DNA of 17,676 nucleotides, taken from Candidatus Sumerlaeota bacterium. GTDB lineage: Bacteria; CG03; SLGR01. A program made the translations under genes and the position numbers. The stretch is taken from the NCBI GenBank assembly GCA_007136585.1, contig SLGR01000044.1, forward strand, positions 1 to 17,676, read 5' to 3'. Positions 1,679 through 16,968 of the stretch are shown here, one piece after another. Position 1 is the stretch's first letter, and each line of letters begins with the position of its first letter. Under the pieces are notes generated by a model that worked only from the letters and a program-made list of their open reading frames with translations, searched no databases and was not told where the DNA came from.

Positions 1679-4120
1679 TTACTTTTTCCTGAACCGGATA
1701 GTTTCGTTATCCTCAAGCTCAGCCCGGATCTTGACAGGAGGGGTTATCTCCTGTTTAAGCATATCCTCGGCGAGAGGGTCTTCAAGATATTTCCTTATGG
1801 TTCTTTCCAGCGGCCTGGCCCCGTATTCTGGGTCAAACCCTTTCTTTACCAGGAACTTCTTCACATCGGCCGAGGTGTCAAAGGTTATTTTCTGATTTGA
1901 AAGCTTCTCCCTGAGCTCGTCAAGCATTATGGAAACAATATTAAGTATATGCTCTTTATTCAGGGGGTGAAAAACTATCAACTCGTCCACCCTGTTTAGA
2001 AACTCCGGACGGAATGTGCGCTTTGTCTCTTCCAGGACCTTATCTTTTATGCGCTTGTAGTCAAAATCCGGTTCTCCGCCCCGGGCAAACCCGAGACCCT
2101 TAGATTTAAGTTCGCGCGTTCCGAGGTTTGAAGTCATTATCACAACGGTATTCCGGAAAACAACCTTATGGCCGAGGTTGTCGGTTATCTGACCGTTATC
2201 AAATATCTGAAGAAGTATATTAAATACTTCCGGATGAGCCTTCTCTATCTCGTCAAGAAGAACCACAGAGTAGGGTTTGCGCCTTACCGACTCGGTAAGG
2301 GTCCCTCCCTCTTCGTAACCCACGTATCCCGGGGGTGCGCCTATCAGCCTGGAAACCGAGAACTTTTCCATAAACTCGCTCATATCCACCCTTATAAGCG
2401 CTTCGCGGTCTCCGAACATATAATCGGCCAGCGTCCGGGCCAGCTCGGTCTTTCCCACCCCGGTTGGTCCGAGAAAAAGAAAAGAACCTATGGGTTTCCG
2501 CGGCTCTTTAAGCCCTGTCCGGGATCGCCTTATCGCCTGGGAGACCCGCGTAACGGCCTCATCCTGCCCTACGATCCTCTTATGCAGCTCCGATTCCATA
2601 TTAAGAAGGCGCTGGGACTCTTTCTCCGTGAGTTTGGATACGGGGATACCCGTCCACTCTGAAACGACCACAGCTATATCCTCCTCATCCACGGTATCCT
2701 GCCCCTTCTGGATCCGCTGCTCCCAGTTCTGTTTCTCCCGGCTTATCTTATCCTCAAGTTTCTTTTCCTCATCCCGCAGGTCAGCCGCTTTCTCAAACTC
2801 CTGGGCGGCTATGGCAGCTTTCTTTTCTTTTGTCAGGGCGGCCTTTTCCTTCTCTATCTCTTTGATATTCTCAGGAAGCATTGTAGCCTTAAGCCTTGCC
2901 CGGGAACCGGATTCGTCAATTATATCTATGGCCTTGTCGGGAAGAAACCGGTCCGTGATGAAACGCTGAGATAGGGTGGCGGCTGCGACAAGCGCCGCAT
3001 CAGAAAATTTAACCTGGTGATGCGCCTCATACCTGTCTCTCAGGCCTTTGAGTATCTCAATTGTCTCATCAACCGATGGGGGATCTACCACAACCTGCTG
3101 AAACCTTCTTGAAAGTGCGGCATCCTTCTCAATATGTTTTCTGTACTCGTCCAGGGTTGTCGCCCCCACGCACTGAAGCTCGCCCCGGGAGAGGGCCGGT
3201 TTAAGTATATTGGAGGCATCCATGGCTCCTTCAGCGGCCCCGGCCCCTATAACGGTGTGAAGCTCATCTATGAAAAGGATAACCCTCCCCTGGGCGCTTC
3301 TTATCTCGTTCATAGCTTTCTTAAGGCGCTGTTCAAACTCCCCCCTGTACTTGGTCCCTGCGATCATAGCGGCAAGATCCAGCGTTACCACGCGTTTATC
3401 CATAAGTATCTCGGGAACCTTATTCTCGGTTATCTTCTGGGCCAGCCCCTCGGCTATGGCCGTCTTTCCCACCCCTGCGTCTCCTACAAGGACCGGGTTA
3501 TTTTTCGTTCTCCTGGAGAGTATCTGTATGACGCGCTGGATCTCCTTCTCTCTTCCGATTATCGGGTCAAGCTTTCCGTCGGAGGCAAGGGCGTTAAGGT
3601 CGCGCCCGTAAGTATCAAGAGCCGGAGTCTTGGAGGATTTTCTCCCTTTTACCCCCGGTCCGCCGGGACCGGGGTTAAAGGCTCCCTCCCCAAGGAGGTT
3701 CAGAACCGTATCCCGGACCTTCTCCTGGGAGAGTCCGGCCGAGACCATTACCTGGTTTGCCACCCCCTCCTCCTCCTTTATTAGCCCAAGAAGTATATGC
3801 TCGGTACCCACGAAATTATGCCCAAGCTCCTGCGCCTCCCTTACAGCCAGGGTTAGAACACGCTTGGAACGGGGGGTCATGGGCCTGTCCCCGGTAAGAA
3901 GAACGTTATCCCCTTCACCCACTATATCTATTACCTTCTTCCTCAGTTTTGAACGGTCAACCCCCATCACCTTGAGAGCCTCCGCCGCCACCCCTTCGTT
4001 AAGGGCCAGCAGACCCAGAAGTATATGCTCGGTCCCGACATAATCGTGACTGAGTTTCTTGGCCTCATCCTGCGCCAGGACGATGGCCTTCTGGGCTCTC
4101 TTTGTAAATTTATTAAGCAT
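1679..4120 (-). CDS. clpC: ATP-dependent Clp protease ATPase subunit ClpC
   Basis: This 813-residue Hsp100 unfoldase feeds substrates to the ClpP peptidase in the cytoplasm. Domains in order: a double Clp-N domain (about 1-145) in which YVGTEHILLGLL and FVGTEHILLGLI mark the two repeats; AAA1 with Walker A GDAGVGKT (213-220) and Walker B VILFIDEL (280-287); a middle coiled region with a UVR-type motif (about 427-461, AAQEFEKAADLRDEEKKLE); and AAA2 with Walker A GPTGVGKT (551-558) and Walker B VVLLDEI (619-625). The middle domain and UVR motif point to ClpC rather than ClpA or ClpB. In Firmicutes ClpC, McsB and McsA act together, and here mcsA and mcsB lie directly upstream. The start is supported by a strong ribosome site, AAAGGAGAAG, just before the ATG. 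A separate promoter precedes the gene in the 79-base gap after mcsB. Length is normal and no key residue appears to be missing. Confidence 0.97.
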   Translation of the reverse strand: MLNKFTKRAQKAIVLAQDEAKKLSHDYVGTEHILLGLLALNEGVAAEALKVMGVDRSKLRKKVIDIVGEGDNVLLTGDRPMTPRSKRVLTLAVREAQELGHNFVGTEHILLGLIKEEEGVANQVMVSAGLSQEKVRDTVLNLLGEGAFNPGPGGPGVKGRKSSKTPALDTYGRDLNALASDGKLDPIIGREKEIQRVIQILSRRTKNNPVLVGDAGVGKTAIAEGLAQKITENKVPEILMDKRVVTLDLAAMIAGTKYRGEFEQRLKKAMNEIRSAQGRVILFIDELHTVIGAGAAEGAMDASNILKPALSRGELQCVGATTLDEYRKHIEKDAALSRRFQQVVVDPPSVDETIEILKGLRDRYEAHHQVKFSDAALVAAATLSQRFITDRFLPDKAIDIIDESGSRARLKATMLPENIKEIEKEKAALTKEKKAAIAAQEFEKAADLRDEEKKLEDKISREKQNWEQRIQKGQDTVDEEDIAVVVSEWTGIPVSKLTEKESQRLLNMESELHKRIVGQDEAVTRVSQAIRRSRTGLKEPRKPIGSFLFLGPTGVGKTELARTLADYMFGDREALIRVDMSEFMEKFSVSRLIGAPPGYVGYEEGGTLTESVRRKPYSVVLLDEIEKAHPEVFNILLQIFDNGQITDNLGHKVVFRNTVVIMTSNLGTRELKSKGLGFARGGEPDFDYKRIKDKVLEETKRTFRPEFLNRVDELIVFHPLNKEHILNIVSIMLDELREKLSNQKITFDTSADVKKFLVKKGFDPEYGARPLERTIRKYLEDPLAEDMLKQEITPPVKIRAELEDNETIRFRKK

Positions 4121-4174
4121 TTCTCTTCTCCTTTATAATTAATTCAGGTAAACTCTTTAACTGTATCTATGATT

Positions 4175-4203
4175 ATAATAAACAAAACAGCAGGTGTTTT
4201 CAA
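4175..4203 (-). promoter_or_regulatory. Internal sigma70-type promoter for clpC
   Basis: On the minus strand TTGAAA (4203-4198) is followed after 17 bases by TATTAT (4180-4175). An overlapping TATAAT lies 3 bases further on, at 20-base spacing. The -35 box overlaps the end of mcsB and the promoter lies in the 79-base gap, so clpC can be transcribed apart from the operon. The -10 region shares ten bases (GATTATAATA on the plus strand) with the promoter upstream of lysS. No mapped transcript is available. Confidence 0.6.
4184..4200. promoter_or_regulatory. Palindromic candidate operator in the clpC promoter
   Basis: AAAACA and TGTTTT form a perfect 6-bp inverted repeat separated by 5 bases. 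It sits in the spacer between the -35 and -10 boxes of the clpC promoter and overlaps the -35. That is a classical repressor position. It resembles neither the CtsR tandem heptamer nor CIRCE, so the regulator is unknown. Short AT-rich palindromes do arise by chance. Confidence 0.4.
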
Positions 4204-5252
4204 ACCCCGCTTTTTCTAAGGGCGTTTCTTATAAGACGGGCTCTTGCTATATCCATTTCAGAATCGTTCATACAACTCCCCTCAATCTGCTGGATATGCG
4301 CGGGCTGTATTTTTATCATAAGGTTATTGAGAGTATTAAGGTCTCTCTTGATGATACCGTTATATACCCCGAACCTGAGGTTGCTCATAAAATCCATAGC
4401 TTCCTCAAAACTTATCTTATAGGCGTTTACAAGGACCCCGTGAGACCTGTATACTGAGTCTTTTACAGTCTCCTCCCCGGTTTCAAGAATCTTCGAGCTA
4501 ACTTTCCTTTCACGTTCAACCACCTGCACGACAAGACGTTTCAGGCTGTCTATAACCCTTGTCTCGGAAACCCCAAGGGTAACCTGGTTTGAGACCTGCA
4601 GAATATTCCCCATAACCCTTGTTCCTTCGCCGTAAATGCCCCTTACGACCATTCCCAGCTTATTTATATTCTCCATTGTGCCGCCCAGACTTCCTGTCAT
4701 GCCCAGACCCGGAAGATGAAGCAGGCAGGAGGCCCTCATTCCTGTCCCGGTATTGGTGGGGCATGAAGTAAGGTAACCCCATTTCCCGGAGTAGGCATAA
4801 TCCAGGAGCCCTCCCAGATCGTCATCAAGCCTGTTTATAACGTCCCAGGAGTCAAAGAGATTAAGCCCGGCGGAGATATACTGCGCCCTGAGGTGATCCT
4901 CTTCGTTTATCATTATGCTCATAAGTTCCCGGTCACCCAGGAGAATACCCCCGGGACGGGATGAGAATGCAAGACCCCGGCTTACCAGGTTCCTTTCCAA
5001 AAGAAGCTGACGGTCTATATCATCACACTCTTCCAGTCTTATATTTTCAGCTTTCTTAAGAAGTGATATACTTTTGCAGGCCCTGAATACCCTCTCCCTT
5101 ATCTTTCTGAGAGTCTCCGCAGGGGAGGTTGAGGGAAAGCTGAAACCTTTAAGGTTTCTGGCAAGACGTATCCTTGTGGATATTATGCAGGGGTTTCCGT
5201 CCCCACCCGAAAGCCATCCCACATCTCTCCGCGCTAACTCACTCAGGTTCAT
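4200..5252 (-). CDS. mcsB: Protein arginine kinase McsB
   Basis: This 350-residue protein belongs to the phosphagen (guanidino) kinase superfamily. McsB phosphorylates arginine side chains of proteins and so marks them for ClpC. Visible family motifs are STRIRLARN (25-33, nucleotide-binding arginines), NEEDHLR (116-122, the catalytic acidic loop), CPTNTGTGMRAS (164-175, with the conserved cysteine), and GEGTRVMGNILQVSNQVTLG (about 208-227), followed by VVQVVERERK. Length is typical of McsB (about 350-360). Its ATG lies 14 bases inside the end of mcsA (mcsA ends at 5239), and there is no strong Shine-Dalgarno, so it is probably translationally coupled to mcsA. The arrangement mcsA-mcsB-clpC matches Firmicutes except that no ctsR repressor gene precedes it. 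Confidence 0.96.
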   Translation of the reverse strand: MNLSELARRDVGWLSGGDGNPCIISTRIRLARNLKGFSFPSTSPAETLRKIRERVFRACKSISLLKKAENIRLEECDDIDRQLLLERNLVSRGLAFSSRPGGILLGDRELMSIMINEEDHLRAQYISAGLNLFDSWDVINRLDDDLGGLLDYAYSGKWGYLTSCPTNTGTGMRASCLLHLPGLGMTGSLGGTMENINKLGMVVRGIYGEGTRVMGNILQVSNQVTLGVSETRVIDSLKRLVVQVVERERKVSSKILETGEETVKDSVYRSHGVLVNAYKISFEEAMDFMSNLRFGVYNGIIKRDLNTLNNLMIKIQPAHIQQIEGSCMNDSEMDIARARLIRNALRKSGV

Positions 5253-5748
5253 CCGGGTGTTTTTCCATGGACTTTATCCGGTCCCTTATAACCGCCGCTC
5301 TCTCATACTCCTCCCGGTCAACGGCTTCCCTGAGTTCAAGCCTGAGCTTATCGATCTCGGTCTTCTTCTCAACCCCCGGAGGAACTTTACCGGAATGCTG
5401 GACAGAGCCGTGCACCCGCATCATAAGCGAGGTAAGGTTTTCGGCGAATGTTTCATAGCACCGATCGCACCCCAGAAGCCCGCTCTGCTGAAAACTGCTC
5501 AGGGTAGTTCCGCATCCGGGACAGCGGAGCGAACCGCCCGGGGCGTCAATTTTTTCCGCGTCGCTGAACCCGGCAAGCATATCGGATATACTGGAGAAAA
5601 AACCTTCATGTAACCCCTGGATCTTGATTGAACACTCCGGTGACCGGGCAGCGCATTTTTCGCATAAACGGTATCTTTTCTGCCTGCCGTTTTCAATCCT
5701 TGTTATGAAAACGGAGGCCGGGTTCTTCCTGCAGTCCTGGCAGAGCAT
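5239..5748 (-). CDS. mcsA: McsA, zinc-binding UVR-domain activator of McsB
   Basis: This 169-residue protein has CxxC pairs CQDC (3-6) and CEKC (29-32) at the N-terminus, and CPGC and CDRC in the middle, which gives two zinc-binding treble-clef-like units. It ends in a UVR motif (about residues 130-160, KLRLELREAVDREEYERAAVIRDRIKSM). This is the standard McsA architecture; in Firmicutes McsA binds and activates McsB and contributes to ClpC adaptor function. The gene begins 8 bases after the ilvE stop codon and overlaps mcsB by 14 bases, so it is internal to the operon. No clear Shine-Dalgarno is visible before the ATG. ClpC also carries a UVR-type motif. Confidence 0.93.
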   Translation of the reverse strand: MLCQDCRKNPASVFITRIENGRQKRYRLCEKCAARSPECSIKIQGLHEGFFSSISDMLAGFSDAEKIDAPGGSLRCPGCGTTLSSFQQSGLLGCDRCYETFAENLTSLMMRVHGSVQHSGKVPPGVEKKTEIDKLRLELREAVDREEYERAAVIRDRIKSMEKHPDEPE

Positions 5749-10128: not shown

Positions 10129-10801
10129 CCCCTACTCGGAGCGCCCCGCTTTTTTTCAACGCGGCGGCACACTCTCTCAGTGTAGAACCTGTCGTTGCCA
10201 CGTCATCTATAAGAATAAATCTTCCGCCCGAGGCGCGGCGCGAAGCCCGGAATGCCCCGGATACGTTACCGGACCTTGACCTCCTTCCCAGAGAGACCTG
10301 GGCCATGGTCTTTCTTTCCCGGGTAAGTACCCCCCTGGAAACCGGCAGACCCGTGACCCCTGAGAGACGCCGGGCAAGCTCAAGGGACTGGTTATACCCT
10401 CTCTCACGCTGCCGCGTCTTATGTAGGGGTACAGGCAAGAGGAAATCAAACCCCCGGGGCTGAAGTTCTTCCCAGCACCCCGCAAGGATCTCAGAGAGTT
10501 CGCCGGCAAGGTACCGGCGTCTTCCGTACTTAAAGTTTATTATTATTTTTTTTACGTTTAATCCGTAAATACAAGCTATATAGAACGCATCAATATTAGA
10601 GGTTACCTCTAGTTGGCCGCATCTGCCGCAGAGCCCGGGACCCCTTACGGGGCGCCCGCAGTAAAGGCACCCGTAAGAGTTTATAACCTCCAGATTCATG
10701 CGGCACCCCGGGCATATATCTCCCTTATCTGATACTCTGATCTCAGAGCCGCAGCACGGACAGGAAACGGGAAGAAGGAGCTTTACTATCCTTCCCGGCA
10801 T
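10103..10801 (-). CDS. comF: ComF-family phosphoribosyltransferase-like protein
   Basis: This 232-residue protein has an N-terminal zinc-ribbon region with cysteines at 14, 16 and 17, 30 and 33, 45 and 48, and 58 and 61. A type I phosphoribosyltransferase domain follows, with PVPLHKTRQRERGYNQS (about 123-139) and the PRPP-binding loop FILIDDVATTGSTL (195-208). This is the ComF/GntX architecture; in naturally competent bacteria ComF takes part in DNA uptake and its early processing, though many family members are uncharacterised. Its ATG overlaps the stop codon of the upstream SprA-like gene by one base (TGATG), and no Shine-Dalgarno is visible, so translation is likely coupled to that gene. 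The family call is firm; a competence role here is not shown. Confidence 0.9.
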   Translation of the reverse strand: MPGRIVKLLLPVSCPCCGSEIRVSDKGDICPGCRMNLEVINSYGCLYCGRPVRGPGLCGRCGQLEVTSNIDAFYIACIYGLNVKKIIINFKYGRRRYLAGELSEILAGCWEELQPRGFDFLLPVPLHKTRQRERGYNQSLELARRLSGVTGLPVSRGVLTRERKTMAQVSLGRRSRSGNVSGAFRASRRASGGRFILIDDVATTGSTLRECAAALKKSGALRVGALAVAHGR

Positions 10802-13800
10802 CAGAACATTATGACAAGATCGGTACTCATATAGAAAGATATATAACTGTTTTCCGACAGGACCCTGTTATGCAGGTACTGACCGCCCAGCCCCAGTGTC
10901 ATTCTCATATTACTTGAAACATCCATCTCGGAACTGCCGCTCAGCATATACTTGTCATAGTTGGTCCTCTCAACATCAAGGCTGCTCCTGGAGAATTCAG
11001 CGTCCAGGGTGCCCCGGACCCTCATCCTTCCCATCGTAGCCACCTCACTCCCCAGAAAAGGGATATTCATCATCGGGGGGAGCTCCAGGAGCGCATCAAA
11101 ACTCAGACCCGGACGGTATGTTCTTCTGTCGGCCAGCGGGGTATCGCTTAAACTTGAGATCCTCTCGGTTTCCGACTGGGAGTACCTTGCTATCAGGTTC
11201 CAGTTCCGTTTAAGCGGCACCCGCACCTGCCCGCTGTAGGAAACACTTTCCTCAAGAGTATACGAGTCCTCTCTCAGGTTATCTTTCTTTGAGGTATCAC
11301 GTGAATATTCCACCAGCGTATCGTAATCCTTTAAAAAAAGAAACCGGCAGTTTGCCCCGTACCTCTTTTCCACGGTAAGATCCACCGGATCGGCATCGGA
11401 GAAACTGGATTCCTCCTTATGCCTGTACCTTGTCCTAAGCCGTATATCCCGGATAGCCCCGCCGGAAAACGGCAGCCGCTCAACCGACCCGTGGTTGAGT
11501 TCAAGGTCAGGCCAGTATCTTGTCTCGGTCTCAAGGACAGTTCCCCTGACATCTCTTCTGGACTCGGTGAAATTATAGACCCCCCGGACCGAGACTCCGC
11601 CCATAAGGTTCATAAGCCCCTTATCCAGTCCCAGGTGGGCAAACGGGCTCCAGTTTACCGTATGGCGTATTGAACTGCGGCTGGTAAGTGTCTCGGGGGT
11701 TTTCTCTGTATCGGTAGAGGGACGGAGTTCATAATAGGGGTTAAGCTTGTCAAAGACGGTATACCCTCTGTCCACTTCGTGCCAGGAATCCCCTTTCTCC
11801 GCCGAATACGAGGTGTTTATATTCAGGGTATCGGCGGCGCGGACGAATGGAAGCAGGTTCCTGGCCGGGACCCCGGCGCTTACGCTTCCCGTAAAGTTCC
11901 TGCTTATATCCTTTGTATCGGCCGGAACGCTTACGCTGTTAGTGGATACGAAGTTATAGTTCTCTATGATCCTTGCGCTCATCTGGCCGCTGGGCCTGAA
12001 CCAGTTCAAAAGGTTGAGCTGCGAGGACAACCCTATATCCTGGCTCTTTGACCAGGGTTCCCTAGGGCTCTCCCCTTTAAGCGGTCCGGAATAGTAATCC
12101 CAGGTCCGGTACTTCTCGTTCCGCGAGAACGAGGGCCTCAGTACAAGCAGCCTGCCCAGCCCAAGCTCCGTAGAGCCCGAATAGGCGAGCGTCTCCTCCA
12201 GCCTGTCCTCTTTTCCCCCGCCCGGGTTCTCTACTCTCTGATACTCTCTCCACTCCACCAGAGAGTCGGTCTTTCTTATATTACCCCTTATGTTACGGGG
12301 AAAAAGGGGCAGGGTGAAGGGAAAATTATAAGAAATATCCCCGCGGTAATTCTCGGTCAGGTCGGTCTTGCCGGTCAGGTTGGACTCGCTCAGACTCTTT
12401 GAATAGGAAGCGCTGAGCGCCGGCAGGTTCCTCATAGAAAACCTGGCGCTGAGGCTTAGCGAATCGGTAATAACCTCTCCCGCGTCCTCCTCCCTAAGGT
12501 AAGGGTTCCGCTGGGCGGGGGTTATACGGTCGGCAGGGGTTGTAACGCTCCTGCGGGAGAACCTCCCCTCCACCGGAAGATAAGAAAGAGCGGTAAGTCT
12601 GGCGTTGGCGGAGTACTCCACCCTGTCCTGGTTGCGCGGAGGCGTCACGATAGTCTGAAAATCCCTCTCCATCTTCTCGTAACTCCCGCCGAACTCAATA
12701 ACCCCGGGGATTGAGGAGGAAAGATCACCCCTTAAGGCCGTTCCTGTCCTGCGGTCAGGCTCCCCCATATGAACCTCGTTCACCCATATCCTTCCTGAAA
12801 TATCGTCAGTTCCGCTGTTATTTATGACCCCCGCCCTTATCTCCATTATGTTACTGACTGACGGGGAACCCGATATCTCCTTGAAATCATCCGGAAAGAT
12901 GAAAGTATACATATTCCATCTGCTCTCTATCTCGGAAGCATCTATGCGGGCAAAGTAATAGTTCTCATTGTTTCCTGAACCTGCTCCCAGCCACAACCCG
13001 AAATCAGCGTCCCGTCCCTCGTACCCGTATAAGAACAGGCTGATTTCCTTATGGCTGGAAAAATCCATGGCGCTGACATACCGGGAGTAGGCGTAGGCGG
13101 TGGCCCCGGCCCTGAGCGAGCTGTACTCAAGTTCAAGTGCCTGTTCCCTCTCGCCGGGGCTCCCCCCGACCTTATCATAGATCCGCTCGTAATCCCTGTG
13201 CCCTTTAAGTTCAATATACTCGTCGCTGTCGTAGTTGTTTATCGCCCTTATCTCCAGGTTATCTATACCTTCCCCCACCTCCCACCTGTTCCCGAGGGCC
13301 TCTATAGACATTATCCCTATACGTCCCGCGAAGCTCGTTCCGCGGCGGCCTCTGACCGTAAGCCTTACGTGCTTTACGGCGCTCCATATATCCTCGTCTC
13401 CGGCCAGTTCAATCGGAACGGTTATAAGGCGCCATCCTGTCCAGTCCATCTTAAGGTACCTAAGGTCAGGATCGGCGGGATCATACTCAAACCTGGCGAA
13501 GTTTTCTATGGTGTCAAGGTAACCGTCCCTGTCAAGGTCGTTGGAATCTATCCGGGCGTTCCTGGCCCCTATAGGGATCACCTCATCCCCGAACTCGAAA
13601 TCCCACCCTATATCCTGCCCGTGGTCAAGGGTCCCGCTGTTATTCACATCCTCTGTCTTCAGGATACCGGTTCCGTCGGCATCCTCGGATATGGTCCCGA
13701 GATCCATTATAAGCTCGGCCCCGCTTCCGTCACCCCTTACCCACATTGATATTGAATCCTTATCGCTCAGATCCGCCCCGGTCCTTGAAAGAACATATAC

Positions 13801-15984
13801 AACGGAGGCCTCCGGATCTATCCCGCTCTCAAGGGGGTGTTCCGAAGGAAGCCTGTAATCAAGGAGCAGCACCCTCCTTCTTTCGTCGTCCTCCCTCGCC
13901 ACCCTGGGGTTAACATCCCTGAGGTAAACCTCGTCCTCGTCCAGTCTCTTAAAGAGCCACTCGGGATGCGCGGGATACTGAGAGGTGCCTTCAGCCAGGG
14001 ACGGGGTGGCAGCTATCTGCCAGGAATCGGGGTTGGTGGATACCCCGTAACTCTGCCTGATCCCTTCCATATTGTCTATCATTGCCTTTCCGACGGTATT
14101 AGGGTTCTGGTTGCTGTAGGCAACCTCTCCGCTAAGGGAGGTGGGCATCGGGAAAAACCTGCCGGCGGGGATACGCAAACTCATATCGGAGTTCAGCACC
14201 AGGGCGCTCTCTGGGGTTGACCCTACCTGCGGTATATCCTGGGGAGTGCTTGACCAGTTGTAGAGCATGGTTCCTCCCATACTGAAGTTTCTGGAGAAAT
14301 CATACTCCCCCCGAAGGCCGACCAGGGTCTCTTTCATCTGCCCACCGAACGGCATATACTCGTATGTGACCTCTATCCGCGTGGTTTCGTCAATACGGTC
14401 CTCATCCAGAAAACTCAGGAACCCCGAGGTGTAATCTATTATGTAATCGGTATCCCGGGAGAGGACCCGGCCGTCAAGCATAACCCGCTCGCTTCCCCGG
14501 ATTATATTCGGCCTCAGGAAATAATTCCTGAGCATCCGTTTATACTCCACGTATATAATATACCGGTGCTGCGGGTTGGTCCTTCGGTATATATCCTTAA
14601 ACCCGCCCCGGTCGTACCCTTCCCCCTCGGGATGGTCCGGGTTATAGAACGGGGTATCGTCAGTAAACTCAAGTATCCCCAGGTCATAATCAACCCTGTA
14701 GGAACCTTCGGGAAGCTCGACCTCGTTCCTGTTAAGGTCAAGGAAACGCAGCACAAAATCCTCGCGCATTATCCTGGTCGCCCCCAGGCTGTACCGGTTC
14801 TTCAGCTCCGTGCTTACCGTCTCATCCACATTCTTTATCACCACGGGAAGTCCAGAATACCCCACCTCACCTGTCCCCAAGCCGTAATTGTACTCCACGG
14901 CTATAACATAATTTGAAGCTATATTGTACCTGAAATTTATGACCCCGTTAGAATTATCAATATAGTAGTCCCGCCCGGCCACAAGACGGTAGAAGCTTCC
15001 CGTGTAGGTCTCGGTGGAGCCTTTTATACGTGCGGTCATCGTTGACTTGTTCTTCTCAACCGCGGTGGTCGGATCCCTGTCATCTATATAGACCCGCAGG
15101 GTTCCGGGGTCAAGCGGAAGGTGCGCCTTATCTATAGCAGCCCTGTAATACCTCCGCCTGATATAAGAGGTATCCCTTATATCGGTTTTCTGGAAGGAAC
15201 TCTCCCCGTAGAACTCCTGGACCTCCGTCGTCCCCTTGGCCTGCGAACCTATGGCCATGAACCGAAGGTCGCGGTACTGCCCCCTTACGCTTGCTCCGAA
15301 TACGTTCTTGGAGTACCCGACAAACCGGGTTGCCGGGATATGAAGGTTTATATCGCCGAAAGCCGCCTCCTGGATTATCTCGTCGGGGTCACCCCTGTAT
15401 TTAACAGATATCTTCCGGGCATCCTCGTCGTAGGCCGGTTTTGTGTCGTCGTAATCCACGTTTACGGTTATCTTATCCCCCACCTCGCCCTGTATCCTCA
15501 CCCTGAGCTCCTGGTCCATCTCAAACCCGCTTGGAACCCCCGCCGGAACCCCCTCCGCCGTCCGTTCATCTTCGTCTCCCATATAGCTGAAGTGCCCGTA
15601 CTTGACCGAAATGGATTTTCTTCCGGTTATGCTCATACGGGCCTGGTAGGGTAACTCAGGGCGGGCCTCCGGATAGAACTCCGGGGCGGTAACCGAGGGG
15701 GTTGAGATATCCACGTCTTCAGTCACCGCCTCCGGTATCTCAAATGTATCATCCCGTTTCTGCTGTATTATATCCTTCCAGAGACAATCCTCGAACTCAA
15801 GCTGGATCCCGGTGTCAATAAACTCCCGGTACTCCTCAAGGAGGGTTGTAGGGGTTGAAGGCTCCACTGTGCAGAAATCAAGCTCCCCCTCTTCTATCAG
15901 CGAGAAGTCCCTCCCGTACGCCGCCCCCGCACACACCAAAATCACCACCAGGGGACGGATGTGAAAATGTGAAAGTTTTAACAT
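10801..15984 (-). CDS. sprA: SprA-like giant outer-membrane beta-barrel protein
   Basis: A protein of 1727 residues. Residues 1-24 form a signal peptide with h-region LVVILVCAGAA and probable cleavage after AAYG. Blocks resembling SprA, the barrel of the type 9 secretion translocon, follow: SVKYRGDPDEIIQEAAFGDI (193-212) then a GYSKNVFGASV segment; several modules of the form DYxIDYxxGxLxF...IxVxYxY (about 294-367, 428-483, 500-547); DNMEG (637-641) and SWQIAATP (654-661); two acidic calcium-type loops, EDVNNSGTLDHGQD (778-791) and DLDRDGYLDTIE (816-827); and IGIMSIEALGNRWEV (889-903). The last 600 residues are amphipathic strands, ending in a C-terminal phenylalanine as outer-membrane barrels usually do. 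It is shorter than Bacteroidota SprA (about 2400). It is joined to the transposase upstream and comF downstream by one-base TGATG overlaps. The first eleven residues are encoded largely by the end of the mobile element. Confidence 0.8.
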   Translation of the reverse strand: MLKLSHFHIRPLVVILVCAGAAYGRDFSLIEEGELDFCTVEPSTPTTLLEEYREFIDTGIQLEFEDCLWKDIIQQKRDDTFEIPEAVTEDVDISTPSVTAPEFYPEARPELPYQARMSITGRKSISVKYGHFSYMGDEDERTAEGVPAGVPSGFEMDQELRVRIQGEVGDKITVNVDYDDTKPAYDEDARKISVKYRGDPDEIIQEAAFGDINLHIPATRFVGYSKNVFGASVRGQYRDLRFMAIGSQAKGTTEVQEFYGESSFQKTDIRDTSYIRRRYYRAAIDKAHLPLDPGTLRVYIDDRDPTTAVEKNKSTMTARIKGSTETYTGSFYRLVAGRDYYIDNSNGVINFRYNIASNYVIAVEYNYGLGTGEVGYSGLPVVIKNVDETVSTELKNRYSLGATRIMREDFVLRFLDLNRNEVELPEGSYRVDYDLGILEFTDDTPFYNPDHPEGEGYDRGGFKDIYRRTNPQHRYIIYVEYKRMLRNYFLRPNIIRGSERVMLDGRVLSRDTDYIIDYTSGFLSFLDEDRIDETTRIEVTYEYMPFGGQMKETLVGLRGEYDFSRNFSMGGTMLYNWSSTPQDIPQVGSTPESALVLNSDMSLRIPAGRFFPMPTSLSGEVAYSNQNPNTVGKAMIDNMEGIRQSYGVSTNPDSWQIAATPSLAEGTSQYPAHPEWLFKRLDEDEVYLRDVNPRVAREDDERRRVLLLDYRLPSEHPLESGIDPEASVVYVLSRTGADLSDKDSISMWVRGDGSGAELIMDLGTISEDADGTGILKTEDVNNSGTLDHGQDIGWDFEFGDEVIPIGARNARIDSNDLDRDGYLDTIENFARFEYDPADPDLRYLKMDWTGWRLITVPIELAGDEDIWSAVKHVRLTVRGRRGTSFAGRIGIMSIEALGNRWEVGEGIDNLEIRAINNYDSDEYIELKGHRDYERIYDKVGGSPGEREQALELEYSSLRAGATAYAYSRYVSAMDFSSHKEISLFLYGYEGRDADFGLWLGAGSGNNENYYFARIDASEIESRWNMYTFIFPDDFKEISGSPSVSNIMEIRAGVINNSGTDDISGRIWVNEVHMGEPDRRTGTALRGDLSSSIPGVIEFGGSYEKMERDFQTIVTPPRNQDRVEYSANARLTALSYLPVEGRFSRRSVTTPADRITPAQRNPYLREEDAGEVITDSLSLSARFSMRNLPALSASYSKSLSESNLTGKTDLTENYRGDISYNFPFTLPLFPRNIRGNIRKTDSLVEWREYQRVENPGGGKEDRLEETLAYSGSTELGLGRLLVLRPSFSRNEKYRTWDYYSGPLKGESPREPWSKSQDIGLSSQLNLLNWFRPSGQMSARIIENYNFVSTNSVSVPADTKDISRNFTGSVSAGVPARNLLPFVRAADTLNINTSYSAEKGDSWHEVDRGYTVFDKLNPYYELRPSTDTEKTPETLTSRSSIRHTVNWSPFAHLGLDKGLMNLMGGVSVRGVYNFTESRRDVRGTVLETETRYWPDLELNHGSVERLPFSGGAIRDIRLRTRYRHKEESSFSDADPVDLTVEKRYGANCRFLFLKDYDTLVEYSRDTSKKDNLREDSYTLEESVSYSGQVRVPLKRNWNLIARYSQSETERISSLSDTPLADRRTYRPGLSFDALLELPPMMNIPFLGSEVATMGRMRVRGTLDAEFSRSSLDVERTNYDKYMLSGSSEMDVSSNMRMTLGLGGQYLHNRVLSENSYISFYMSTDLVIMF
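15952..15974 (+). repeat. Left inverted repeat of the transposase element
   Basis: The sequence is GGGACGGATGTGAAAA, then T, then GTGAAA. It matches the right copy at 22 of 23 positions on the opposite strand. It contains GTGAAA twice in direct orientation. Read on the minus strand it encodes about residues 4-11 (LSHFHIRP) of the SprA-like protein. Confidence 0.8.
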
Positions 15985-16907
15985 CAGATTTTTCTCAGGA
16001 TCCCGCCGATCAGTTCCCGGGGATCCTCCTTTCTTATCCTGCTCACCGCGTGCGATACGGCGGAGTGATCGTTATTAAGAAATTGGGCAATATCAACGGC
16101 CTTGTGGCCGCAGCAGACGCTGGCTATATAACAGAAAATAGCCCTCCCCCGTGAGACCCTTCTCTTGCCGCCGCGGGATCTCAGTTCCTGGGAAGAGACA
16201 CCGTATATACGACAGAACCTGTCTGCCAGCTCGTAAATAGGGAGCCTCAGGCTTTCGGGGGTCTTTCTGCGGAGTTTTTTTTCTTTTAGAACGACCGCCT
16301 TAAAAGTCTCGTCTCCGGCAACCGGAACCCCTGAAGCGGGATAAACTTTCTCCGGATCCGGATCTTCGTCCATCTCAATAAAATCCCTGAAATCCTCCGC
16401 CGGGGTGCCTTGCCCCGTTGAGAGAGCCTTCAGTACCTGCTCTGTATCTACCTGAAGTCCTCCGTCGCATCCCGTATAGTTGCCATAGGATGACCATTTC
16501 CAGCCTGATGGATGAGAGCAGAGCCCCGCCCGGACAGGGTTCCTGTGTATATACCTCACAAGCTGAAGGAAATAACTCTCCCGGTCGCATATGATTGACT
16601 GAAACCTGCTCTGAAAAAGATGCCCGCTCCTTCCGTACCTGCGGTTGTAGTTCACAGCATACCTTATGGAAACCGATTTCATTATCTCTGAGAGAGAATC
16701 CTGGCCTCGCTCAACAAGTATATGAAAATGATTGGGCATCAGGACATAACAGTAGAGAGAAAAAGAGTATTTTTCCCTGGCTTTCCTCAAGCAATCTATA
16801 AACTCCAGGTAATCGCAGCTTTTGCGGAATATCCTCTCTTTTCTTATTCCTCTGTTAAGAACATGATAGAGGGCCCCTTCAATATCTATTCTGGGTTGTC
16901 TTGGCAT
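15984..16907 (-). CDS. Y1 (IS200/RAYT-type) transposase with DnaA-like C-terminal domain
   Basis: A 307-residue protein. The N-terminal half is a Y1 HUH-type transposase: PRxxxxGALYHVLNRGI at residues 2-18, the metal-binding HxH in VLMPNHFHILVERG (about 56-69), the RxGHLFQSRF block (about 95-104), and the probable catalytic tyrosine in RYIHRNPVRAGLC (about 117-129). These are hallmarks of REP-associated tyrosine transposases. The C-terminal quarter (about 225-300) resembles DnaA domain IV: LADRFCRIYGVSSQELRS, an RGRAIFCYIA helix, then HKAVDIAQFLNNDHSAVSHAVSRI, which recalls the DnaA-box-recognising helix-turn-helix. The gene is intact. It is preceded by a good promoter lying outside the element and ends in a TGATG overlap with the SprA-like gene. 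No strong Shine-Dalgarno is visible. Confidence 0.9.
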   Translation of the reverse strand: MPRQPRIDIEGALYHVLNRGIRKERIFRKSCDYLEFIDCLRKAREKYSFSLYCYVLMPNHFHILVERGQDSLSEIMKSVSIRYAVNYNRRYGRSGHLFQSRFQSIICDRESYFLQLVRYIHRNPVRAGLCSHPSGWKWSSYGNYTGCDGGLQVDTEQVLKALSTGQGTPAEDFRDFIEMDEDPDPEKVYPASGVPVAGDETFKAVVLKEKKLRRKTPESLRLPIYELADRFCRIYGVSSQELRSRGGKRRVSRGRAIFCYIASVCCGHKAVDIAQFLNNDHSAVSHAVSRIRKEDPRELIGGILRKI

Positions 16908-16915
16908 AAAATTAT

Positions 16916-16938
16916 TTTCACTTTTTCACATCCGTCCC
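16916..16938 (-). repeat. Right inverted repeat of the transposase element
   Basis: Read on the minus strand this is GGGACGGATGTGAAAA, then A, then GTGAAA. It differs from the left copy at one position. It lies in the leader of the transposase gene, 8 bases upstream of the ATG and directly downstream of the -10 box. Confidence 0.8.
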
Positions 16939-16939
16939 T

Positions 16940-16968
16940 ATTATAATTGAAGAATTTGCAATATTCAA
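16940..16968 (-). promoter_or_regulatory. Sigma70-type promoter of the transposase-sprA-comF block
   Basis: On the minus strand TTGAAT (16968-16963) is followed after 17 bases by a perfect TATAAT (16945-16940). It lies just outside the right inverted repeat, so it belongs to the host locus and not to the element. It presumably drives the transposase, sprA-like and comF genes together. Confidence 0.7.

Follow-up and report, generated by a model that had tools for sequence, protein, structure and literature searches.

How can a transposable element come to lie at the 5' end of a gene for an outer-membrane protein without destroying its signal peptide? The question is posed by a stretch of 17,676 nucleotides (contig SLGR01000044.1, hereafter the window) from the genome of a Candidatus Sumerlaeota bacterium (G000), in which a tyrosine transposase gene, tnpA, runs directly into a gene for an SprA-like protein. 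We use the wording "SprA-like" because this protein reaches 182 bits with TIGR04189 (T9SS SprA/Sov), under the curated cut-off of 200 bits. In window coordinates, the locus comprises the following features:

16963..16968, minus strand: predicted promoter -35 box TTGAAT, reading toward tnpA-sprA (TTGAAT-N17-TATAAT; activity predicted only)
16940..16945, minus strand: predicted promoter -10 box TATAAT, at a distance of one base from the right repeat's outer end
16916..16938, minus strand: right (5') terminal inverted repeat (TIR), GGGACGGATGTGAAAAAGTGAAA, with its end 8 nt upstream of the tnpA ATG
15984..16907, minus strand: tnpA, tyrosine (HUH/Y1) transposase with C-terminal DnaA-type helix-turn-helix, single copy (TIRYT / RAYT subclass 2.1)
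15982..15986, minus strand: TGATG, in which the tnpA stop and the sprA start overlap
15952..15974, plus strand: left (3') TIR, whose minus-strand reading is part of the sprA CDS
15952..15984, minus strand: SprA codons 1-11, MLKLSHFHIRP, start codon and n-region from the element, absent in element-free relatives
15919..15951, minus strand: SprA codons 12-22, LVVILVCAGAA, host-derived hydrophobic core from the element boundary on
10801..15984, minus strand: SprA/Sov-like outer-membrane protein gene, 1727 aa, intact

The repeats are complementary at 22 of 23 nt and bracket the 307-aa transposase ORF. The sprA ATG (15982-15984) and the tnpA TGA (15984-15986) have one base in common, the outer end of the left repeat is the exact end of SprA codon 11, and all three outward frames of the 3' TIR are free of stops. 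An earlier note, made from the sequence alone, had described a Y1 transposase gene between 23-bp inverted repeats identical at 22 positions, which was borne out by the sequence, Pfam and NCBIfam; it had also placed the left repeat inside the SprA-like frame, with residues up to about 11 supplied by the element and the core LVVILVCAGAA beginning where the repeat stops, and this held exactly. Its name for the protein was correct, with the refinement that the TIGR04189 cut-off is missed. The proposed insertion at the sprA 5' end, with the element donating start codon and n-region, is supported, function of the signal peptide not being shown. As to the claim that the frame is preserved and coupled, the frame and the TGATG overlap held, and translational coupling is inferred. 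Beyond that note, the arrangement was found to be old, a native promoter was predicted outside the right end, and about ten start captures by TIRs were detected in the phylum. At the sequence level, the SprA signal peptide is a chimera of a TIR-encoded n-region and a host h-region; neither SignalP nor an experiment attests to the function of this peptide.

The predicted transcription start would fall within the right repeat. A near-identical copy of this promoter-like stretch, TTTGAATATTGCAAATTATTCAATTATAAT, is found upstream of sprA in G001, a genome without the element; the element thus probably has the native promoter on one side and the signal-peptide core on the other. The two boxes just beyond the right end are accordingly likely to be the native sprA promoter, a prediction for which no activity data exist. 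Elsewhere in the window (1679-5748), ClpC-, McsB- (ATP:guanido phosphotransferase) and McsA-like (UVR) genes follow in a row, the set for arginine phosphorylation, and the genome that contains this set also encodes LptF and the SprA-like protein.

The transposase matches Y1_Tnp (PF01797; 44.7 bits, cut-off 23), Bac_DnaA_C (PF08299; residues 231-291, 41.1 bits) and REP_Tyr_transpos (NF047646; 84.6 bits, cut-off 80), aligns with TnpA_REP (PDB 4er8) at E=0.0017, and contains the motifs NHFHI and YIHRNPVRAG. Two of the TIRYT criteria are satisfied, namely a Y1 (HUH) domain related to TnpA_REP and flanking non-palindromic terminal inverted repeats, the latter likewise in G002, which represents another genus of the same family; so is the subclass 2.1 criterion of a C-terminal HTH (Bac_DnaA_C, HTH_23 or HTH_28). 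The RAYT criterion of GTAG-tagged palindromic repeats is unmet, inspection of the 23-mer GGGACGGATGTGAAAATGTGAAA revealing no GTAG and no palindrome. The left end, GGGGACGG, fits the GGGGWSAS core at 7/8 positions and the right end has only three Gs; the TIR cores of relatives read GGGGACGG, GGGGACAG and GGGGTCAG. The element belongs to a known class, the TIRtrons/TIRYTs of Di Nocera et al. 2013 (PMC3733652) and TnpA_REP subclass 2.1.2 of PMC6006769. For this subclass a Bac_DnaA_C domain has been noted, and such TIRs do not match DnaA boxes (PMC6006769). Loci of the same plan occur in other phyla, with a Y1 gene between GGGGACGG, GGGGACAG or GGGGACGT repeats; in addition, GGGGACAGGCTACTTTTT repeats were seen there as tight inverted pairs, 27-30 nt apart and REPIN- or MITE-like (L281, L285, L297; G053, G376). 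That the transposase acts on its TIRs, by binding, cleavage or mobilization, is inferred, with merely indirect support from solo TIRs at places where relatives have none.

Such solo copies are evident in G000. Allowing up to 3 mismatches, the 23-nt motif was found seven times in this genome and never with a reversed control, which argues against chance; as only one transposase copy is present, five of the seven are solo. The motif also flanks the orthologous transposase in G002, where solo copies exist as well, and it is absent elsewhere in the phylum genomes examined, except for one 3-mismatch match in G009. One solo TIR of G000 lies in the signal-peptide-like leader of a pcm gene (MKLKLIHIFTSVPLLMAA), for which G001 has its own, unrelated leader. 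Two others provide C-terminal codons and the stop, in a radical-SAM gene ending GTDVKM and a PorV-like gene ending WGRM. In the latter outer-membrane protein (L011, G000:C39:2415-2437), GRM replaces the C-terminal ARF of the orthologue in G003, a member of another family, and the terminal Phe typical of beta-barrel sorting signals is lost. In G002 a solo TIR supplies the C-terminus of alaS, and the same alaS-tRNA junction is found in G001 and G003 without a TIR. At the sequence level, solo repeats are thereby shown to form gene ends as well. Two intergenic solo TIRs of G000 (L012, G000:C172; L007, G000:C44) lie 2-5 nt upstream of predicted -35 boxes, behind which one nrd-like and one crp-like gene follow.

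These intergenic copies bear on a first rival explanation, according to which the TIR is kept as a regulatory operator or RNA element, with TnpA acting on the promoter-proximal TIR or pairing of the TIRs masking the sprA start. In its favor, the right TIR adjoins the -10 box, the TIR duplex closes the predicted fold of the tnpA-sprA mRNA, two solo TIRs are found beside the -35 boxes just mentioned, and TnpA has a DnaA-type DNA-binding domain. However, any inverted repeat yields a long stem, in a compact genome every intergenic repeat is near promoters, and there are no binding or expression data; we regard this reading as unlikely.

In relatives, sprA and lptF are divergent neighbors, which is the ancestral order, and a transposase lies in between only in G000, G002 and G003. 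In each of these it is oriented toward sprA, and the overlap of its stop with the start of sprA reads TGATG, TTGA and ATGA, respectively. The earlier note would have been refuted by transposase-free relatives sharing the first 11 residues and the 23-bp sequence at sprA, or by a motif absent elsewhere and unrelated to transposase genes. Neither is the case: both residues and 23-mer are missing at sprA of the transposase-free relatives G001 and G004-G007, and the motif does occur elsewhere, tied to the transposase in G000 and G002. The element-free SprA N-termini also differ (MRKVICLHISIMLL in G001, MRKIFFTICLLAI in G005, MFKPILTISLLLI in G007). The three sprA-linked transposases form one clade (support 97/99), the branching order of which is that of the SprA tree. 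In this tree, the element-free G001 and G004/G006 lineage is nested between G000/G002 and G003, and a single old insertion consequently requires losses. The simplest view is that of one early insertion with later losses, and repeated insertion remains possible. At least two genera, and probably a second family, have received the arrangement by descent; in G003 the transposase and the stop/start overlap are present, but a left TIR cannot be recognized. For sprA itself no same-genus empty site exists. In G001, the leader of the element-free sprA (L153 5259-5730) contains a stretch of 370 nt, the last frame of which is in GTGA overlap with sprA; a tnpA remnant was sought there by tblastn without a significant match.

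Between G000 and G002, sprA codons 1-498 share 64% DNA identity, and third positions at shared residues are 41% identical, near saturation, yet 29 nt covering the sprA TIR are the same in both, and no other identical run is longer than 14 nt. Protein sequence alone would not preserve the TIR codons. Our inference is that the TIR has been frozen at the DNA level, most likely by continued recognition by the transposase, for which binding data are lacking; conversion between TIR copies would also preserve it. A second rival accordingly holds that the identical TIRs reflect repeated homing to the same site, by re-insertion or gene conversion, and not inherited constraint. Solo TIRs show that TIRs have spread in both genomes, and a 29-nt identity is unusual within a saturated gene. 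On the other hand, the two transposases are only about 50% identical as proteins, and nevertheless both are found at the same site, both have a similar stop/start overlap, and their phylogeny agrees with that of SprA. We consider this rival unlikely, although gene conversion confined to the TIR could still have taken place in each genome.

Capture of gene starts is not restricted to sprA. Our survey of 16 genomes of the phylum, all of them drafts and probably metagenome-assembled, covered about two dozen related Y1 genes, 18 of which have a clear TIR pair. In 13 of these 18, a long downstream ORF begins within the element and exits via the 3' TIR, and none has a fusion on the 5' side. With orthologous sites counted once, fusions amount to 10/15 and represent ten independent events (10:0 for 3' versus 5' side, sign test p=0.002), their independence being based on different target genes and different TIR sequences. 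The same scan of 52 TIR-flanked Y1 loci from other organisms yielded five fusions on the 3' side (about 10%; Fisher p=2e-5 for 10/15 versus 5/52) and three on the 5' side, the latter resembling spurious antisense ORFs. The idea that TIR fusions are general in bacteria was rejected, as outside the phylum they concern only about 5/52 elements and 1-2/30 dispersed TIR copies. The captured genes, named by our reading of their sequences and not by database assignment, are:

sprA, in G000 and G002, 3' TIR fusion
tRNA nucleotidyltransferase, in G008 and also in G012 and G014, MSRPDPI followed by VEIKLIAEKYP (G008)
metH-like gene, in G006, MKNRTVPF followed by ILDGGMGTS
SpoIID-like gene, MEKEQKYKSITPT followed by LFLFLLVFGLTAA
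two O-antigen-ligase/TPR-like genes
four further genes with hydrophobic N-termini

A strongly hydrophobic stretch is present within the first 45 residues in eight of the ten events, compared to 40% of 175 background ORFs (p about 0.01). This background is small, rough and non-independent, and the enrichment of hydrophobic N-termini, modest as it is, can be called no more than suggestive. Similar O-antigen-ligase/TPR-like genes had their starts captured by two transposase subfamilies (L159, G002 C158; L226, G010 C12).

Four fusions have transposase-free orthologues in the same genus, with other N-termini and both flanks alignable. In the metH-like gene, 22 nt of G004, comprising the ATG and the first codons, stand at the place of the whole element in G006. 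At the site of element G010c, a native leader of 80 nt (MVKNKRFAQIAAVTVMLSGLTG) is present in G012 and G008, and the element with a TIR-encoded leader in G010. The same behavior is seen for element G008b against the empty site in G014, and for the tRNA nucleotidyltransferase (element G008a) against that in G010. Relics were observed as well, at two loci. At the first, G008 and G012 have no transposase but retain a TIR-like N-terminus (MKGCCHTALHRSLLY in G008 versus MKRYCHNVKHRPLLY in G010, which has the element there). At the second, a collapsed element in G012 is still enclosed by both TIRs of the G010d family, with MKKCRMSPFF still encoded before the core. TIR-encoded N-termini can hence outlast the transposase. 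Further TIR copies reside within signal peptides where no element is present. The signal peptide of a porin-like gene consists of several TIR pieces, with LRTSPF occurring twice in G010 (L228, C53) and TIRs of a different family in the orthologues of G012 (L273, C98) and G008 (L272, C85), and another copy (L317, G012:C177:16576-16600) encodes IVTMSTAVP within the signal peptide of yet another exported protein (MRRRALLGLAIVTMSTAVPLLCRAAA).

It could be objected that the fusions are coincidental ORF extensions, with translation of SprA truly beginning at a GTG or TTG within the hydrophobic core and the codons of the TIR being untranslated or irrelevant. Such codons are indeed present in frame 3 and 6 nt past the TIR, and the outward frames of the TIR are all stop-free. 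However, a start inside the core would strip all positively charged residues of the n-region, frame and sequence are kept in G002 despite large divergence, the next start in the tRNA nucleotidyltransferase lies 47 nt into the conserved region, and in other phyla only about 10% of elements were flagged by the same scan. This explanation is therefore very unlikely.

The explanation that we prefer, and which is likely to be correct as a whole, combines insertion of a TIRtron in sense, start capture, inheritance and recurrence. A TIRtron, consisting of a Y1 transposase gene and GGGGAC-type terminal inverted repeats, would have inserted at the sprA 5' end, between the promoter and the hydrophobic core of the signal peptide, and would have taken the place of the native start codon and n-region. 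The element would bring its own start at the tnpA stop, with the 3' repeat encoding a basic, hydrophilic stretch, and sprA would be translated from the element by stop/start coupling, for which there are no expression data. The same capture would have occurred about ten times independently in the phylum, mostly before signal peptides or membrane segments, regions that probably tolerate replacement of the n-region if frame, start and positive charge are supplied. After capture, the host gene would rely on DNA of the element, so that loss would be disfavored. What the sequences show is position, frame, overlap, replacement of the native N-terminus, inheritance and relics; it is inferred that an insertion survives when translation from the element's own start, close to the tnpA stop, continues in frame across a stop-free TIR. 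The main limit of this explanation is that it was inferred from sequence, without any data on expression or secretion and without proteomics.

The element class is known, and its recurrent start capture is apparently undescribed as far as open-access literature is concerned: our search of this literature, with subscription literature outside its scope, retrieved no account of recurrent capture of gene starts by TIRtrons, and none of a signal peptide that contains a frozen transposon end. Like the present element, described TIRYTs/TIRtrons combine a Y1/HUH transposase, a DnaA-type C-terminal domain, flanking TIRs with a GGGGWSAS-like core and dispersed TIR copies (PMC3733652; PMC6006769), but the relevant parts of these papers mention neither a neighboring host gene with a TIR as its start and N-terminus nor a transposase joined to such a gene by stop/start coupling. 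The RAYT/REP system (TnpA_REP) resembles our case in its single-copy, vertically inherited Y1 transposase and dispersed short repeats, whereas the repeats reported here are non-palindromic and lack the GTAG tag. Enterobacterial RU repeats are likewise fused to ORFs, and RU-2 forms part of a predicted signal peptide in YPO1552, a single noted case; however, they are non-autonomous, 103-168 bp long and isolated cases, without transposase-linked start capture, recurrence at the same signal-peptide point or DNA-level freezing across genera (Delihas 2007, PMC2759123). Rickettsia palindromic elements share the in-frame insertion of repeats in genes, but are palindromic, and no dedicated transposase is identified for them (PMC3733652). 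They are internal to proteins and do not supply start and n-region.

A bolder reading would be that TIRtrons persist via start capture, their 3' end being a portable start codon plus n-region; we regard this as possible, with the balance tilting slightly against it. If true, the element would replace the 5' ends of needed genes, chiefly those of exported proteins, without killing the host, clean loss would be costly, and the signal peptide would be under a second constraint, recognition by the transposase.

Why single-copy, vertically inherited RAYT/TIRYT transposases are retained is an open question, to which physical start capture offers a simple and testable answer for a subgroup. The locus and its counterparts provide a concrete, repeated case of transposon ends turned into protein N-termini. 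Signal peptides would be the usual place for this, because changes in their sequence are tolerated if charge and hydrophobicity are retained. Protein export and recognition by the transposase would then rest on the same piece of DNA.
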